DNA of 64,000 nt from the NCBI GenBank assembly GCA_033763975.1, contig JANRJM010000002.1, positions 1 to 64,000 of the forward strand, read 5' to 3'. Numbering within the stretch: position 1 is the stretch's first letter; each line of letters starts with the position of its first letter. This document shows, one piece after another, positions 2,054-10,659 of the stretch. Source of the stretch: Planctomycetota bacterium. GTDB lineage: Bacteria > Planctomycetota > Phycisphaerae > Phycisphaerales > UBA1924. Made by a program: the position numbers and the translations under genes. Under the pieces are notes generated by a model. The model searched no databases. It was given only the letters and a program-made list of their open reading frames with translations, and was not told the origin of the DNA.

Positions 2054-2749
2054 CTACGACGGGCGGACGCCCCGCGGTTGCTCCGAAGGCCCGGCCGGGA
2101 GCAACTGATCGAGCGCGGGCAGGGGCGGGGGCGATTCGGCGAGGAACCCGGCCAGAGTCCGACCGACGCGGCGGCCCGCGGGAAGCGCGTGGGGCGCGAT
2201 CGGCGCGAGGGGCGCGCCCACGGTCGAGAAATCGGCGGGCGCCAGGTGCACCGTGCGCCAGCGCGGGCTGCGGACGCGCATGCGGGCCTTGTAGTCGGCG
2301 AGGCGGACGCAGCGGAGCGAGTACCAGCGCCCGGCGTGCTCGAAGATCTCGTCGAAGAGCGCGTCGGGGGGGAGTTCGTCGCACCAGTAGACGAAGAGAA
2401 AGACGCCCTCGAACGACGGGCCGAAGAGCATCTCCCAGCGCGAGAGGGACTCGACGTCGTCGAGGGTGACCCAGTTCTCGAGCCGGGCGGCCCCGGCGGA
2501 CGCGCGGGCGGAACGCCGGGGCATGATGCGGCGTCCCTTGACCTCGACGAGGAGGTTGGCGCCCTCGCCGTAGATCACAACGTCGAAACTCTTGAGGGCG
2601 TGCCCGTCGTGGCGGAGGGCGGGGAAGCGGTCGCCCGGGAGGAGCGCCTTGCGGGCCTCGTCGACGGCGACGTACGGGATGCGCCGGGCGCGCAGATAGT
2701 TCTCGAAGGCCTGCTCGTAGTGGTGGCGGCGCTGCACGCGTTGGCTCAC
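2054..2749 (-). CDS. HYExAFE family protein, possible PD-(D/E)XK fold
   Basis: The start is chosen as GTG at 2749, which overlaps the stop of the upstream MCE gene (GTGA). This gives 231 residues with the family signature HYEQAFE at 10-16, as expected near the N-terminus. HYExAFE proteins are a planctomycete family without an established function. About residue 55 onward reads SFDVVIYGEGANLLVEVKGR: an Asp, a spacer and E-V-K, the arrangement of a PD-(D/E)XK nuclease core. That reading is mine and not an established property of the family. The rest contains alternating Trp/Tyr-rich strands and no membrane segment. Translational coupling to the MCE gene suggests joint expression. Confidence 0.85.
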   Translation of the reverse strand: MSQRVQRRHHYEQAFENYLRARRIPYVAVDEARKALLPGDRFPALRHDGHALKSFDVVIYGEGANLLVEVKGRRIMPRRSARASAGAARLENWVTLDDVESLSRWEMLFGPSFEGVFLFVYWCDELPPDALFDEIFEHAGRWYSLRCVRLADYKARMRVRSPRWRTVHLAPADFSTVGAPLAPIAPHALPAGRRVGRTLAGFLAESPPPLPALDQLLPAGPSEQPRGVRPS

Positions 2750-4029
2750 TTCCCGACCTGGACCTCGACCAACTTGTCGAGCAGGTACTGCTCGGCCTGG
2801 CGGTAGCGGGCGATCGACTCGGCGAGGCTGGCGCTGAGCGCCTCGAAGTCCGCGGCGGTGGCGGCCCCGGCGCGCTGGGCGGCGGCGGCGGCCTCCAGCG
2901 CCTCGCCCGCGGCCCGCAGGTCGCTGGCGGCCTCGGCGTACGAGCGCGTCGCGTCGTAGATCACCTGGCTCTCGAGTTCCTTGGTCGAGGGCTGCTGGAG
3001 AAGGCGCCATGGCTGCGAGCGGACTTCGATGGCCGTGAGCTTGAGCTGGTCGGACATCAGACGAAGGTTCGCGAGCGTGCGGCGCAGGTTGGGGGTCTGC
3101 TCGCCGACGACCGCGCTCACGCGGCCCACGGCCTCGGAGAAGACGCCCAGCGCGTCGCGCCCGTCGCGCAGCGCGACGTTCACCGCGTCGATGGTCTCCT
3201 GGTTGAACTTGCCGGTGGCCTCCTCGAGGTTCTTGACCGTCTGGTCGATGCGGGCGCGGTTGTCCTCGATGAGCGAACGGACGGAGGCGATGACGCCCCG
3301 CGCGTCGTCGAGGCCCAGGTCGGCCTTCTCGAGCAGCGGGTCGAGGCGCGCCGAGGCCCGCTCGACGTTGGCGGCGGTGGCGTCGATGCGCACGGTCCAT
3401 TCGTCGAGCTTGACGCGGAGCTCGGCGAGCAGGGCGGCGGCGTCGGTCGCGCCGGACTCGACCTTGGGCCCGGTGTTCTCGACGATCGACGCGACGCGCT
3501 GCATGGTCTCGTCGATGGACTTGATGGCGGCGCGGAGCTGGGCCGACTGCTCGGGGCCGAAGCCCGCGTCGGCCAAGAAGCCCGGGGGGGCGGTGGCGCC
3601 GGGGATGACATCACCCGGGGCCAGGCGCGGGACGGGCGCGCCGCTGGCGGGGTTGGTGGGCGTGCCGACGCTGGAGATGTTGATGGCGGAGATGGAGCCC
3701 AGCAGGGGCTTCTCGAGGTACACGCGGGTGTTGGCGTAGAGCATGAGGTCGTCGCGCACTTCGACGCGCACGTCGACGCTGGTGGGCGTGCCCTGGTCGT
3801 CGCGGGCGAAGCCGACGTCGAGGACGCGTCCGACGGGCTGGCCGCCGAGGCGGACCTCGCTGCCGCGTTTGAGGCCGACCGCGCCGGTCTCGACGGGGAA
3901 GCGCACGGACAGGGGCATGACCGAGTCGAAGGGGGAGCGGTCGGAGAGGAGGAAACTGACCCAGACGGCGAGGACGACGCCCATGAGGACGAAGACGCCG
4001 GCGAGGACGTTGTTGCGGGCGTTCTGCAT
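2746..4029 (-). CDS. MCE/MlaD family lipid-transport substrate-binding protein
   Basis: 427 residues. An N-terminal signal anchor (about residues 8-27) is followed by one MCE domain (about 40-125, with GLKRGSEVRLGGQPVGRVLDV) and a long, helical, coiled-coil-like region with Ala/Glu/Arg heptads to the C-terminus. This matches periplasmic MCE proteins that carry lipids between inner and outer membrane together with an MlaF ATPase and MlaE permease. The ATPase gene lies directly upstream (48 bases), but no MlaE-type permease is in the operon, so the permease must be encoded elsewhere or be different. Confidence 0.9.
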   Translation of the reverse strand: MQNARNNVLAGVFVLMGVVLAVWVSFLLSDRSPFDSVMPLSVRFPVETGAVGLKRGSEVRLGGQPVGRVLDVGFARDDQGTPTSVDVRVEVRDDLMLYANTRVYLEKPLLGSISAINISSVGTPTNPASGAPVPRLAPGDVIPGATAPPGFLADAGFGPEQSAQLRAAIKSIDETMQRVASIVENTGPKVESGATDAAALLAELRVKLDEWTVRIDATAANVERASARLDPLLEKADLGLDDARGVIASVRSLIEDNRARIDQTVKNLEEATGKFNQETIDAVNVALRDGRDALGVFSEAVGRVSAVVGEQTPNLRRTLANLRLMSDQLKLTAIEVRSQPWRLLQQPSTKELESQVIYDATRSYAEAASDLRAAGEALEAAAAAQRAGAATAADFEALSASLAESIARYRQAEQYLLDKLVEVQVGK

Positions 4030-4077
4030 GGGCGCAGAATACGCGGCGGGGCGGGCGGGTTGCGCGGCGCGTGTCGG

Positions 4078-4959
4078 CTAGCGGGTGGGCGTCAGGCTGG
4101 GCATGCTGGCGACGCGGGTGTCGTCGCCCAGGAGGGTGCGCTCCAGCAGGCCCTGGTCCTTGCGGTCGGTGATCGGGCCCTCGGGGTCGCCCCGCAGGAA
4201 CTGGCGGATGAGGCGCTGATCGGTGGGCAGGGCGGCGGCCTGCTCGTCGGTCGCCTTGCGGAGCGTGTCGTACCACTCGCGGCTCTGGACGGTGAGCATG
4301 CGCCCCTTGTCGAGCATGGCCATGCGGTCGGCGATGGTGAAGGCGCTGTCCATCTCGTGGGTGACGACGACGCTGGTGACGCCGAGCTTTTTGCTCAGGT
4401 CCATCATGAGGTGGTCGATCTGGGCGCTGGTGACGGGGTCCAGGCCGGCGGAGGGCTCGTCGTAGAAGAGGATCTCGGGGTCGAGGGCGAGGGCGCGGGC
4501 GAGGCCGGCGCGTTTCTTCATGCCGCCGGAGATCTGGGAGGGGTACTTGTCGGCGTGCTCGAGGAGGCCGACGAGCTCGAGCTTGATCTTGACCTGGATG
4601 TCGATGATGGCGGGGTCGAGGTCGGTGTGCTCGCGGATGGGGAGGGCGACGTTCTCGTAGAGGGTCATGGAGTTGAAGAGCGCGCCGGACTGGAAGAGGA
4701 TGCCGAAGCGCTTGCGGACGTCGTCGAAGTCGTCGCGCGTGAGCCCGCAGATCGACGAGCCGAAGAGGCGGACGTCGCCGGAATCCGGGCGGAGCGAGCC
4801 GATGATGAGGCGGAGCAGCGTGGACTTGCCCGAGCCCGACCCGCCCATGATGACCATCGTCTCGCCCGGGAGCACGTCCAGCGTGACGCCCGAGAGGACG
4901 GTGCGCCCGTCGAAGCGCTTGACGATCTCGCGGCACGAGATGATGGGGTCGTCGGGCAC
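4078..4959 (-). CDS. MlaF-like ABC transporter ATP-binding protein
   Basis: I prefer the GTG at 4959 (MPDDPIISCREIVKRF) over an in-frame start further up at 5043, because family members begin a few residues before this first strand. Walker A is GGSGSGKST, the signature is SGGMKKRAGLARAL, and Walker B is ILFYDEPSAGLDP; the SGGMKKR form is typical of the Mla/retrograde lipid-transport ATPases. About 293 residues, with a C-terminal extension of some 40 residues after the ATPase core. First gene of the leftward operon; the gene on its other side is divergent. Confidence 0.92.
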   Translation of the reverse strand: MPDDPIISCREIVKRFDGRTVLSGVTLDVLPGETMVIMGGSGSGKSTLLRLIIGSLRPDSGDVRLFGSSICGLTRDDFDDVRKRFGILFQSGALFNSMTLYENVALPIREHTDLDPAIIDIQVKIKLELVGLLEHADKYPSQISGGMKKRAGLARALALDPEILFYDEPSAGLDPVTSAQIDHLMMDLSKKLGVTSVVVTHEMDSAFTIADRMAMLDKGRMLTVQSREWYDTLRKATDEQAAALPTDQRLIRQFLRGDPEGPITDRKDQGLLERTLLGDDTRVASMPSLTPTR

Positions 4960-5078
4960 GCGGGTAGCGTAGCGAACGCGTGGCGGGATGGGGCGCCTCG
5001 GGCACGCGCGAGCGGGGGCGGACGCTAGGATCGGGGGTGACACACTCGCCCTCGAGCCGCACGGGCGTCCTGGAACGG

Positions 5079-7244: not shown

Positions 7245-8603
7245 ATGCGCCGCCGCGTTGTCATTACCGGGTTGGGAGCCGTCACGCCTCTGGGGATGGG
7301 GATGCCCGCGCTGTGGGAGGGGCTGGTGGGCGGGCGCAGCGCGCTGGGCCCGATGACGCGGACCGATCCGTCGGGGTTCGCGTCGCGCCTGGGGGGCGAG
7401 ATCCCGAACTTTTCGGCCAAGGACCACGTGCCCAAGCACTACCGCAAGGCGGTGAAGGTGATGGCGCGCGACACCGAGATCGCCGTGGCCGCGGCGAAGG
7501 CGGCGGTTGAAGACGCCGGGCTGGTGACGCGTGGCACCGGCGACGGCACGGGGGCGCCGACGTACCCGCCCGAGCGGTTCGGGTGCCAGATCGGGTCGGG
7601 GCTGATCTCGGCCGAGACGCTGGAACTGACGATGGCGCTGGCGACGGCGGTGGGCGACGGGCCGGCCGACCACGCGGGGTTCGACATGCGGGCGTGGGGC
7701 GGGCACGAGGGCTCGGGCGGGATGAACAACCTGCCCCCGCTGTGGATGCTGAAGTACCTGCCCAACATGCTGGCGTGCCACGTGACGATCATCCACGGCG
7801 CGGAGGGGCCCAGCAACACGCTGACGTGCGCCGAGGCGAGCGGGCTGCTGTGCATCGGCGAAGGAACGCGGGTGATCGAACGCCACGCGGCGGACGGGTG
7901 CTACTGCGGCGGGGCCGAGGCGAAGCTGATGCTGATGGGCCTGTGCCGCCTGACGTTCGCGGAGCGCCTGGCGCCGACGGGCGAAGAAACCGACGGCTCG
8001 CGGGTGGTGAGGCCGTTTGACCCCGGCTCGGCGGGCTCGCTGCTGGGCGAGGGCGGCGCGATCGTGGTGCTGGAATCGCTGGAGACGGCGACGGCGCGCG
8101 GGGCGCGGGTGTACGCGGAAGTGGCGGGGTTCGGGGCGGCGCACAGCGGGCCCCCGCTCTTCGCGCCCCTGCCCGCGCCGACGCAGGACGCGTGCAACGA
8201 GGGGCTGGCGTTCGCGATCGAGGCGGCGTTGGCCGACGCGGGGATCGGCCCGGGCGAGATCGACGCGATCGTGCCGCAGGGCCTGGGCGCGCCCGCCGTG
8301 GACGCCCGCGAACTGGGCGCGCTGCGCGCGGTGTTCGGGGCGCGCCTGGCGGAGATCCCGCTGGTGACGCTGACGCCGGCGATCGGCGACCTGTTCGCGG
8401 GGCACGGGGCGGTGCAGGCGGCGGTGGGCGCGATGTGCGTGCGGGAGCAGCGCCTGCCGGCGCGCCTGCACGCGGGAACACCCGCGCCCGACGCGCGGTG
8501 CGGGGCCGACGCGGCCCGGGCCGCGGAAGTGCGCCACCTGCTGGTCACCACCGCGTCCATGGGCGGTCAGAACGCGGCGTTGGTGCTGCGGCGGGCCCGG
8601 TAA
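7245..8603 (+). CDS. beta-ketoacyl-ACP synthase-like protein with altered active site (Cys-Gln-Asp)
   Basis: 452 residues, thiolase fold of the FabF type: RRRVVITGLGAVTPLG at the N-terminus and GGQNAALVL at the C-terminus. The nucleophile is kept (Cys195 in LTCAEASG). The first catalytic His, normally in HGTGT, is Gln345 (QGLGAP), and the second, normally in the KSxxGH motif, aligns with Asp382 (AIGDLFAGHGAV). A nearby GH at 387-388 is out of register. This differs from classical chain-length factors, which lose the Cys. It is the first gene of a three-gene set with a GxxExxY protein and a complete ketosynthase, suggesting a non-condensing subunit of a heterodimer; that is inference. Confidence 0.85.
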   Translation: MRRRVVITGLGAVTPLGMGMPALWEGLVGGRSALGPMTRTDPSGFASRLGGEIPNFSAKDHVPKHYRKAVKVMARDTEIAVAAAKAAVEDAGLVTRGTGDGTGAPTYPPERFGCQIGSGLISAETLELTMALATAVGDGPADHAGFDMRAWGGHEGSGGMNNLPPLWMLKYLPNMLACHVTIIHGAEGPSNTLTCAEASGLLCIGEGTRVIERHAADGCYCGGAEAKLMLMGLCRLTFAERLAPTGEETDGSRVVRPFDPGSAGSLLGEGGAIVVLESLETATARGARVYAEVAGFGAAHSGPPLFAPLPAPTQDACNEGLAFAIEAALADAGIGPGEIDAIVPQGLGAPAVDARELGALRAVFGARLAEIPLVTLTPAIGDLFAGHGAVQAAVGAMCVREQRLPARLHAGTPAPDARCGADAARAAEVRHLLVTTASMGGQNAALVLRRAR

Positions 8604-8715
8604 ACCTTCTGGGAATCATGGGCCCGGGCGGTGCGGGCGGCTTACGATGGCGGGCGGCTGCGGACGGGCGTCGCGAACGCCATTTCCGGCGGACGGCACA
8701 GGGAGCGGAGCAAAC

Positions 8716-9312
8716 ATGTCGAACGACAATCAGCGCGATGATTACCGGCCGTACGGGGGCAGACCGCCCCGGGGCGGGCCGGGCGGGCCGGGCGGGCACG
8801 GCGGCGGGTATGGCGGGGGCCCGCGCGAGCGGCGCGGCGTGCCGCTGTCGGAACTGGACCCAACGACGACCGAGGCGTCGCGGAAGGTTATCGGAGCGGC
8901 GATCGAGGTGCATCGGGCGCTGGGGCCGGGGTTCCCGCGCGAGGTGTACGCGAACGCGCTGAAGGTGGAGCTCGACGCCTTGGGCGTGAAGCACGAGACG
9001 GGGCGGAAGATCCCCGTGCGCTACAAGGACAAGCCGATCGGAGAGATCACGACGGACCTGTACGTCGAGAACCGGTTCATCGTGACGGTGATGGGCGTGG
9101 CGGGGATGGTCGGCACGCCGGAGCGGCTGGCGCTGCGGGCGCAGCTCAAGGCGGCGGACTTCGAACTCGGGCTGATCATCAACTTCGGCGACCGGCGCCT
9201 GAAGGACGGGCTGGTGCGGGTGGTGAACATCGACAAGATCCGGGCCGAAAAGGGCCTGGGCGAGGGCGATGATTTCGACGACGCGGGCTCGACGCACGAC
9301 TTTGAGAACTAG
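8716..9312 (+). CDS. GxxExxY family protein, catalytic ExK missing
   Basis: ATG at 8716 preceded by GGAGCGGAG gives 198 residues. The first 40 are rich in Gly, Arg and Pro (RPPRGGPGGPGG), like an RGG tail. The domain that follows matches the GxxExxY/PDDEXK_3 family: AIEVHRALGPGFPREVYANAL, then IPVRYKDKPIGEITTDLYV and LKAADFELGLIINFG. The signature itself is shifted (G-F-P-R-E-V-Y). Asp114 of the nuclease core is kept, but where relatives have ELK the sequence is T124-V-M126. The protein is thus probably not a nuclease. It sits between two ketosynthase genes, 112 bases after the first and 18 before the second. Confidence 0.85.
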   Translation: MSNDNQRDDYRPYGGRPPRGGPGGPGGHGGGYGGGPRERRGVPLSELDPTTTEASRKVIGAAIEVHRALGPGFPREVYANALKVELDALGVKHETGRKIPVRYKDKPIGEITTDLYVENRFIVTVMGVAGMVGTPERLALRAQLKAADFELGLIINFGDRRLKDGLVRVVNIDKIRAEKGLGEGDDFDDAGSTHDFEN

Positions 9313-9330: not shown

Positions 9331-10659
9331 ATGAACGTGCGCACGCGACGGGTCGTCATCACGGGGATGGGATGGGTCACGCCTCTCGGGCACGAGGTCG
9401 AGGGGGTGTGGCGCCGGCTGCTGGCGGGCGAGGCGGCGTTCGGGCCGGTGACGCGGTTCGACGCCTCGACCTTCGCGACGAACTTCGCCGCGGAGGTGAA
9501 GGGGTTCTCGCTGGACGCCCACCTGGCGGACGCGTCCGCGCACGCGGGCTCGGGGCGTTCGACGATGTTCGCGCTGGCGGCGGCGGCGCAGGCGTGGCGC
9601 CAGAGCGGGCTGCGCGACGTGTCGCCCCGGCGGGTGGGCATGTACCTTGGCGCGGGCGAGGGGTCGCTGGACTTCGGGAACTTCGTCGCGACGAACCTGG
9701 CGGCGTACGACCCGGCGACGCGGGCGCTGTCGGACGCGGGCTGGGCCCGGGCCGCCCTGCGCCTGATGCGCGCGCGGACCGAGCTGGAGCAGGAGCCCAA
9801 CGCGACGCTGGCGCACCTAGCGATGGAGTTCCCGATCCGCGGGCCGAGCTTCAACTGCATGACGGCGTGCGCGGCGAGCACGCAGGCGGTGGGCGAGGCG
9901 TTCGAGATCATCCGTCGTGGCGACGCGGACGTGATGCTGGGCGGGGGCACGCACAGCATGATCCACCCGCTGGGGATGACGGGGTTCATCCGGCTGACGG
10001 CGATGTCGACGCGTCGGGACGACCCGATGCACGCGTCGCGCCCGTTCTCGGCGGATCGCGACGGGTTCGTGATGGGCGAAGGGTGCGGGATGCTGGTGCT
10101 GGAGGAGCTGTCGCACGCGCGGGCGCGGGGCGCGACGCCGCTGGCGGAGATCGCGGGGTACGGGTCGTCGGCGGACGCGTTCCGCATCACGGACATCCAG
10201 CCGGACGGGAAGGGGGCGGTGTCGGCGATGGTGCAGGCATGCCGCCAGGCGGGGATCAACCCGCGCGAGCCGGGCGAGGACGGGCGGCCGCAGGTGCACT
10301 ATGTCTCGGCGCACGGGACGGGGACGCAGGAGAACGATCGGATCGAGACGATCGCGGTGAAGTCGCTCTTCGGCCCGCTCGCCGGAGCGGTGCCGTTCAG
10401 CAGCGTGAAGAGCCAGTTCGGGCACCTGATCCAGGCGGCGGGCGCGGTGGAGTTGATCACGTGCGTGCAGGCGATCCGCACGGGGTGGATCCCCGGGACG
10501 ATGAACCTGCACGCGCCCGACCCCGAGTGCGACCTGGACTACGTGGCGAACGCCGCGCGCGACCTGGGCCCGGCGGGCGGGGTCGACGTGTGCCTCTCGA
10601 ACAGCTTCGGCTTCGGCGGGCAGAACAACACGCTGTGCGTGCGCCGGTTCCGCGACTAG
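9331..10659 (+). CDS. beta-ketoacyl-ACP synthase, FabF-type, with complete active site
   Basis: 442 residues. All catalytic residues are visible: Cys180 (MTACAAST), His328 (SAHGTGTQEND) and His365 (VKSQFGHLIQAAGA). It would condense malonyl-ACP with an acyl primer in fatty acid or polyketide-like synthesis in the cytoplasm. The insert around residues 100-165 is longer than in E. coli FabF. Its stop TAG shares the palindrome CTAG (10656-10659) with the stop of the converging DUF1634 gene. No acyl carrier protein, ketoreductase or dehydratase gene is nearby, so whether it serves housekeeping or a special lipid is open. Confidence 0.9.
   Translation: MNVRTRRVVITGMGWVTPLGHEVEGVWRRLLAGEAAFGPVTRFDASTFATNFAAEVKGFSLDAHLADASAHAGSGRSTMFALAAAAQAWRQSGLRDVSPRRVGMYLGAGEGSLDFGNFVATNLAAYDPATRALSDAGWARAALRLMRARTELEQEPNATLAHLAMEFPIRGPSFNCMTACAASTQAVGEAFEIIRRGDADVMLGGGTHSMIHPLGMTGFIRLTAMSTRRDDPMHASRPFSADRDGFVMGEGCGMLVLEELSHARARGATPLAEIAGYGSSADAFRITDIQPDGKGAVSAMVQACRQAGINPREPGEDGRPQVHYVSAHGTGTQENDRIETIAVKSLFGPLAGAVPFSSVKSQFGHLIQAAGAVELITCVQAIRTGWIPGTMNLHAPDPECDLDYVANAARDLGPAGGVDVCLSNSFGFGGQNNTLCVRRFRD

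Follow-up and report, generated by a model that had tools for sequence, protein, structure and literature searches.

Why does a bacterium carry a ketosynthase homolog that has lost the residues of catalysis next to a ketosynthase that has kept them? This question is raised by two genes in the window analyzed here, a stretch of 64,000 nucleotides from a planctomycete of the order Phycisphaerales (GCA_033763975.1, contig JANRJM010000002.1). The first gene, located on the forward strand at positions 7245-8603, encodes a KSbeta-like protein (chain-length-factor-like or FabF2XL-like), and the second, at 9331-10659 on the same strand, encodes an active-type ketosynthase (KSalpha). We propose that the KSbeta-like protein is probably a non-catalytic subunit similar to a chain-length factor (CLF), which forms a heterodimer with the 9331-10659 protein and serves AcpXL-type elongation of a long or very long (hydroxy)acyl chain.

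The KSbeta-like protein and its active-site positions

The open reading frame at 7245-8603 starts with ATG and runs free of stop codons for 452 amino acids, and its product matches both the N- and the C-terminal Pfam ketoacyl-synt domains. The AlphaFold model (mean pLDDT 91.8), calculated from a 51-row alignment comprising a subset of the loci found, adopts the KAS II fold over its full length, with 1e5m as the best structural match (Z 60.6, rmsd 1.8 Å, 406 residues). No chain described as a CLF was recognized among the 50 structural matches listed, which carries no weight either way. Together, the reading frame, the domains, and the FabF fold bear out the ketosynthase-like gene recognized in the first-pass annotation. 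The protein shares this fold with FabF (KAS II) but has none of the Cys, His, His, and Lys residues at the catalytic positions, and it scored 236.7 bits with TIGR03150 (FabF / KAS II), under the cut-off of 493.75. A promoter and terminator scan detected neither kind of element.

The register of the active site was determined with phmmer, by aligning the family profile with FabF, and with MAFFT, using E. coli FabF and annotated KS and CLF proteins. The FabF sequences in the five phmmer alignments came from B. subtilis, S. aureus, and Listeria and included two variants. All three methods place Glu197 (codon 7833-7835) in the column of the catalytic Cys, and Cys195 (codon 7827-7829) two residues earlier. 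The segment GPSNTLTCAEASGLLCIGE of the KSbeta-like protein pairs with FabF without gaps, its E. coli counterpart being GPSISIATACTSGVHNIGH, and in E. coli FabF the ungapped match spans GPS through TACTSG to IGH. Placing Cys195 at the nucleophile would require two residues to be deleted ahead of it and an insertion to follow. In the ketosynthase fold, the nucleophile is located at the N-terminus of a helix; since the model has a strand at residues 190-193 and a helix from residue 196, this location is predicted to be occupied by Glu197. The gap-free alignments and the helix position thus rule out Cys195 as the nucleophile.

At the remaining catalytic positions, Gln345 (codon 8277-8279) aligns with the first His (HGTGT), Thr377 (codon 8373-8375) with the Lys of the KSxxGH motif, and Asp382 (codon 8388-8390) with the second His of that motif. 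The active site therefore reads Glu-Gln-Asp, with Thr377 in place of Lys, and all catalytic positions are lost in gap-free or nearly gap-free alignments. The first-pass annotation had described a ketosynthase-like protein in which Cys195 was kept and both His residues were replaced by Gln345 and Asp382. Its second half stands, whereas the kept Cys does not, because the alignments put Glu197 and not Cys195 on the catalytic Cys, which makes that headline wrong by a register shift of two residues. The same annotation had allowed that other His residues might turn out to occupy the two catalytic positions, and none of the three candidates aligned does so. His387 lies five residues past the second His position in a variable column (H in 16 of 107 sequences), and His179 and His184, which do not vary in the alignments of 24 and 51 rows, align with the His and Tyr located before the elbow strand in E. 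coli FabF and not with a catalytic His.

Conservation within the family and relation to chain-length factors

Conservation was assessed in an alignment of 107 family members, comprising the window sequence and 29 and 77 loci from two collections, in which the same species may recur; L001-L004 were excluded, as were sequences with a query coverage below 80%. Named members belong mostly to Phycisphaerales or Planctomycetota. Two loci titled Leptolyngbya and Chitinophaga (L044 and L088, respectively) carry the planctomycete-type gene and are probably misnamed metagenome bins. Residue 197 is Glu in 101 of the 107 sequences, Asp in five, and His in one. Cys occurs at residue 195 in 103 sequences, the other four having Ala, Val, or Phe there. 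The columns of the two catalytic His residues drift. Position 345 is occupied by F (29), Q (20), L (13), and H (12), with G and T the next commonest, and position 382 by N (39), D (32), S (11), and Q (10), followed by E and A. Asp353 and Glu356 are invariant in all 107 members. Two further sequences, L147 (6396-7862) and L150, match the family profile too, but both have an intact triad and obtain higher scores with the profile of the partner.

Outside this family, we grouped 19 distant KSbeta-like relatives after seeing the first tree and for being without Cys, so that the absence of Cys among them is partly a matter of choice. At the nucleophile position, Glu is found in 11 of them and Asp in five, with one sequence each having Asn, Ser, or Gln. 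Of the 19, 17 still have the Lys, 11 the first His, and seven the second. Their comparison with the family suggests that the nucleophile may have been lost first and the His residues later, an order opposite to that implied by a kept Cys and lost His. The position equivalent to Cys195 is Cys in six of these relatives and Ser, Leu, Gln, Glu, Met, Thr, or Ala in the other 13. In trees built with the window gene, 12 randomly drawn family members, and the 19 distant sequences, the 19 relatives and the 13 family members fall on one side of a branch with a support of 100 (SH-aLRT). The best tree separates the KSbeta-like proteins from actinobacterial CLFs; the AU test does not reject a single clade (p 0.279), in a tree from which FabF2XL was left out because of its very long branch in an earlier tree.

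Similarly to actinobacterial CLFs, the KSbeta-like protein has lost the Cys and both His residues and is encoded beside an active KS. In three annotated Streptomyces CLFs, Cys is replaced by Gln, the first His by Asp, and the second His by Arg, with Lys kept. These sequences contradict the statement in the first-pass annotation that CLFs are missing the Cys but retain the other residues; since they lose both His residues as well, the accompanying remark that the window protein shows the reverse is also wrong. The two kinds of protein differ in the residue at the nucleophile position (Gln in CLFs and in one relative, L138; Glu here), in the catalytic Lys (kept in the three CLFs, Thr377 here), and in gene order, the KSalpha gene lying upstream of the CLF gene there and downstream of the KSbeta-like gene here. 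When the KSbeta-like protein was used as a phmmer query, the actinorhodin CLF chain (131.7 bits) scored above the KS chain (112.4 bits), and the family profile gave the opposite ranking (KS chain 221 bits, CLF chain 191 bits).

An acidic replacement of the Cys is not new, since Rattray and colleagues reported Asp or Glu at the Cys163 position in the Rhodopirellula baltica FabF paralogs RB3714 and RB4527 (Rattray et al., 2009; PMC2649909). The same account describes other replacements in Kuenenia FabF paralogs and suggests a different substrate and function for these. Like the window protein, RB3714 and RB4527 are planctomycete FabF-like proteins with an acidic residue in place of Cys; they differ in that both retain the first His and one retains the second, and the section describing them does not include a partner ketosynthase (PMC2649909). 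KS-CLF matches in Planctomycetes were catalogued in 2023 (PMC10132072).

Partner ketosynthase, carrier protein, and operons in related genomes

The alignment assigns the active site of the partner (9331-10659) to Cys180-His328-Lys360-His365, confirming the first-pass annotation, which had credited this neighbor with a full triad. Cys, His, Lys, and His are present in all 70 members of the partner family aligned with the filters used for the KSbeta-like family. Between the two ketosynthase genes of the window, on the same strand, lies a gene encoding a GxxExxY protein (8647-9312; PF13366, TIGR04256; PDDEXK_3), to which we were led by clustering open frames in the neighborhoods of the loci, a clustering that returned antisense shadows along with genes and was read by eye.

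Among 41 genomes of the order, namely the window's own and those of 40 relatives, the KSbeta-like gene is present in 40, which span six families; in one of them (G038) the copy consists of two fragments. The KSalpha partner occurs in the same 40 genomes, with 57-80% identity in the relatives, and the weaker full-length matches of that search, near 41-44%, are other FabF-like genes. The one remaining genome (G003), which is 71% complete, is without KSbeta, KSalpha, and ACP. According to a tally made by reading the two match lists, the KSbeta-like and KSalpha genes are adjacent in 36 of the 40 genomes and apart in four (G004, G009, G019, and G023). Of 80 database loci, 69 extend 1,500 bases or more downstream; the partner is visible in 61 of these and was not found in 8. 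The pair is direct in 22 of the 61 partner-bearing loci, and in 39 the GxxExxY gene lies between, as in the window; where it does not, 9-62 bases separate the two matches (26 loci measured).

With the KSbeta-like protein as the query, three ketosynthase genes were found in the window's genome, and two ACP-type matches exceed the Pfam cut-off. One ACP adjoins FabF on contig C14, and the second, on contig C16, is flanked by two FabZ-like genes. The second-type ACP is present in the same 40 of 41 genomes as the pair and, as read from the two match lists, lies on a contig different from that of KSbeta in 40 of 40.

The same components form a FabZ-ACP-FabZ-KSbeta-KSalpha operon in other orders of this class and, outside it, in two genomes. 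ACP and FabZ homologs are located directly upstream of the pair and on the same strand in G258, G164, G150, G217, G091, G069, and G316; in G164 the short locus does not reach the first FabZ, and in G091 the contig ends within the partner. In G268, FabZ and the pair were found, with no match to ACP. The operon with ACP was found in five of the six same-class genomes examined (nine had turned up in the search). In other classes, KSbeta, KSalpha, and ACP occur together in two of the 14 genomes with examined flanks (G069 and G316), and in most of the 14 the examined stretch shows the KSbeta-like gene without these companions. G262 combines the ACP/FabZ module with a KSalpha-like gene only, and G052 combines it with two full-triad ketosynthases. 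The first-pass proposal that the KSbeta-like protein is a partner subunit of its neighbor is supported by three observations: the two genes are conserved as neighbors, they are retained together even where separated, and in relatives they form part of operons.

The operon of G069 (L148) also contains FabG. In this genome, a protein with DUF362 and ferredoxin domains is encoded directly downstream of the ketosynthase pair (L148, 7011-8135). Downstream of the pair in G316 (L149, 2275-5113) lie genes for a GH3-domain protein, matching the lyso-ornithine lipid synthetase OlsH below the OlsH cut-off, and for an alpha/beta hydrolase, which hint at a lipid end product. Another planctomycete class contributes a locus (L151, G294:C107) with four ketosynthase genes, ACP, KR, and several FabZ-like matches, resembling a larger cluster of the type II PKS kind; in two of these ketosynthases the nucleophile is replaced by Phe or Ala and the first His by Asp.

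The rhizobial FabF2XL system offers a comparison based on experiment. An Agrobacterium fabF2XL mutant was reported to produce lipid A without the very-long-chain fatty acid, restored in part by a plasmid copy (PMC11901934). A record of Sinorhizobium sp. M103 contains a 616-bit match, above the cut-off, to NF005084 (locus L180). We take NF005084 to be the FabF2XL family, an assignment that fits the gene order, and NF005079 is presumably the AcpXL family. The unannotated L180 carries on one strand ACP, FabZ, the NF005084 protein, and then ketosynthase matches in two frames, an order matching that described for acpXL-fabZXL-fabF2XL-fabF1XL. The ketosynthase downstream of FabF2XL (L180, 3654-4945) is split across these two frames in the deposited sequence. 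FabF2XL has Glu at the nucleophile column and is encoded upstream of a further ketosynthase, as is the KSbeta-like protein, and relatives outside the window's order share its operon order with ACP and FabZ. FabF2XL differs in retaining the GH motif at the second His, and in the window's genome the pair lies apart from the ACP module, on another contig.

Profile scores are low for both components. The KSbeta-like protein reaches 60 bits with NF005084 (cut-off 320), and the second ACP 48 bits with NF005079 (cut-off 83). The search of the window's genome with NF005084 gave nothing above the cut-off, housekeeping FabF (55.9 bits) scoring higher than the KSbeta-like stretch (43.6 bits). As an analogy, FabF2XL is the best experimental parallel to the KSbeta-like protein, resting on gene order and one residue and not on close sequence kinship.

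Proposed role of the pair and alternative explanations

We infer a heterodimer in which the KSbeta-like protein would complete the dimer with the active ketosynthase encoded at 9331-10659, help to hold the acyl carrier protein, and shape the acyl pocket, much as a chain-length factor does. Acylation, decarboxylation, and condensation would be carried out by KSalpha. The second ACP and the two FabZ-like dehydratases of contig C16 most likely serve the pair, whose predicted product is a long or very long (hydroxy)acyl chain made by an AcpXL-type elongation system.

Other functions of the KSbeta-like protein have to be weighed against this role. The first-pass annotation suggested that Cys195 could be acylated, the protein acting as an acyl acceptor or transferase. 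Its conservation in 103 of 107 family members and its position near the active-site elbow would agree with such a function, which we nevertheless regard as extremely improbable: every alignment made places Cys195 two residues ahead of the nucleophile position, so the idea loses its basis, the position is not Cys in 13 of the 19 distant relatives and in four of the 107, and no His or Lys remains to activate it. The acidic residue in place of Cys could also point to a KSQ-type decarboxylase converting malonyl-ACP to a starter. Loss of the nucleophile alone would fit this activity, as would the Lys (17 of 19), first His (11 of 19), and second His (7 of 19) of the distant relatives; KSQ decarboxylases generally retain both His residues, but both positions are degenerate in the window protein and across the 107 members, and we consider this function very improbable. 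Somewhat less remote, though still improbable, is a stand-alone homodimer that binds acyl groups or regulates and merely shares an operon with the ketosynthase. KSbeta-like copies without a partner in the examined stretch are common in other planctomycete classes, but within the order the partner accompanies the KSbeta-like gene in 40 of 40 genomes and adjoins it in 36.

For the product of the pair, the main rival is a polyene, which seems unlikely but deserves to be taken seriously. A KS pair, ACP, KR, and dehydratase are likewise described for systems producing aryl polyenes and for highly reducing type II PKSs (PMC8358021, PMC10698177), and the scan of genes in the L148 operon turned up no separate enoyl reductase, the SDR there matching FabG best. 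Against a specialized product stands the presence of the pair in 40 of 41 genomes from six families, which fits core lipid metabolism better. The role of a CLF-like subunit in acyl chain elongation thus remains the explanation that we favor.

A broader possibility, on which we are evenly divided at best, is that many Planctomycetota possess a core AcpXL-type machine consisting of FabZ, ACP, FabZ, a dead KSbeta, and an active KSalpha. Its KSbeta, in which a conserved acidic residue has taken the place of the nucleophile, might set the length of an acyl chain of the outer membrane, and the window's order might have split the pair from the carrier module, with decay of the other catalytic residues. 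A literature search for acpXL together with chain length factor found no papers. The additions made here, which our limited search of the literature did not turn up, are the pairing with an active ketosynthase, the ACP/FabZ operon of relatives, and the occurrence in 40 of the 41 genomes from the order. With the misread active site corrected, an odd enzyme becomes a testable partner subunit, and another phylum joins the question of why a ketosynthase dimer retains a dead half.

The window's other genes were assessed by eye. Near the pair, on the minus strand at 2746-5043, are look-alikes of an MCE/MlaD-type protein and an ABC ATPase of lipid transport.
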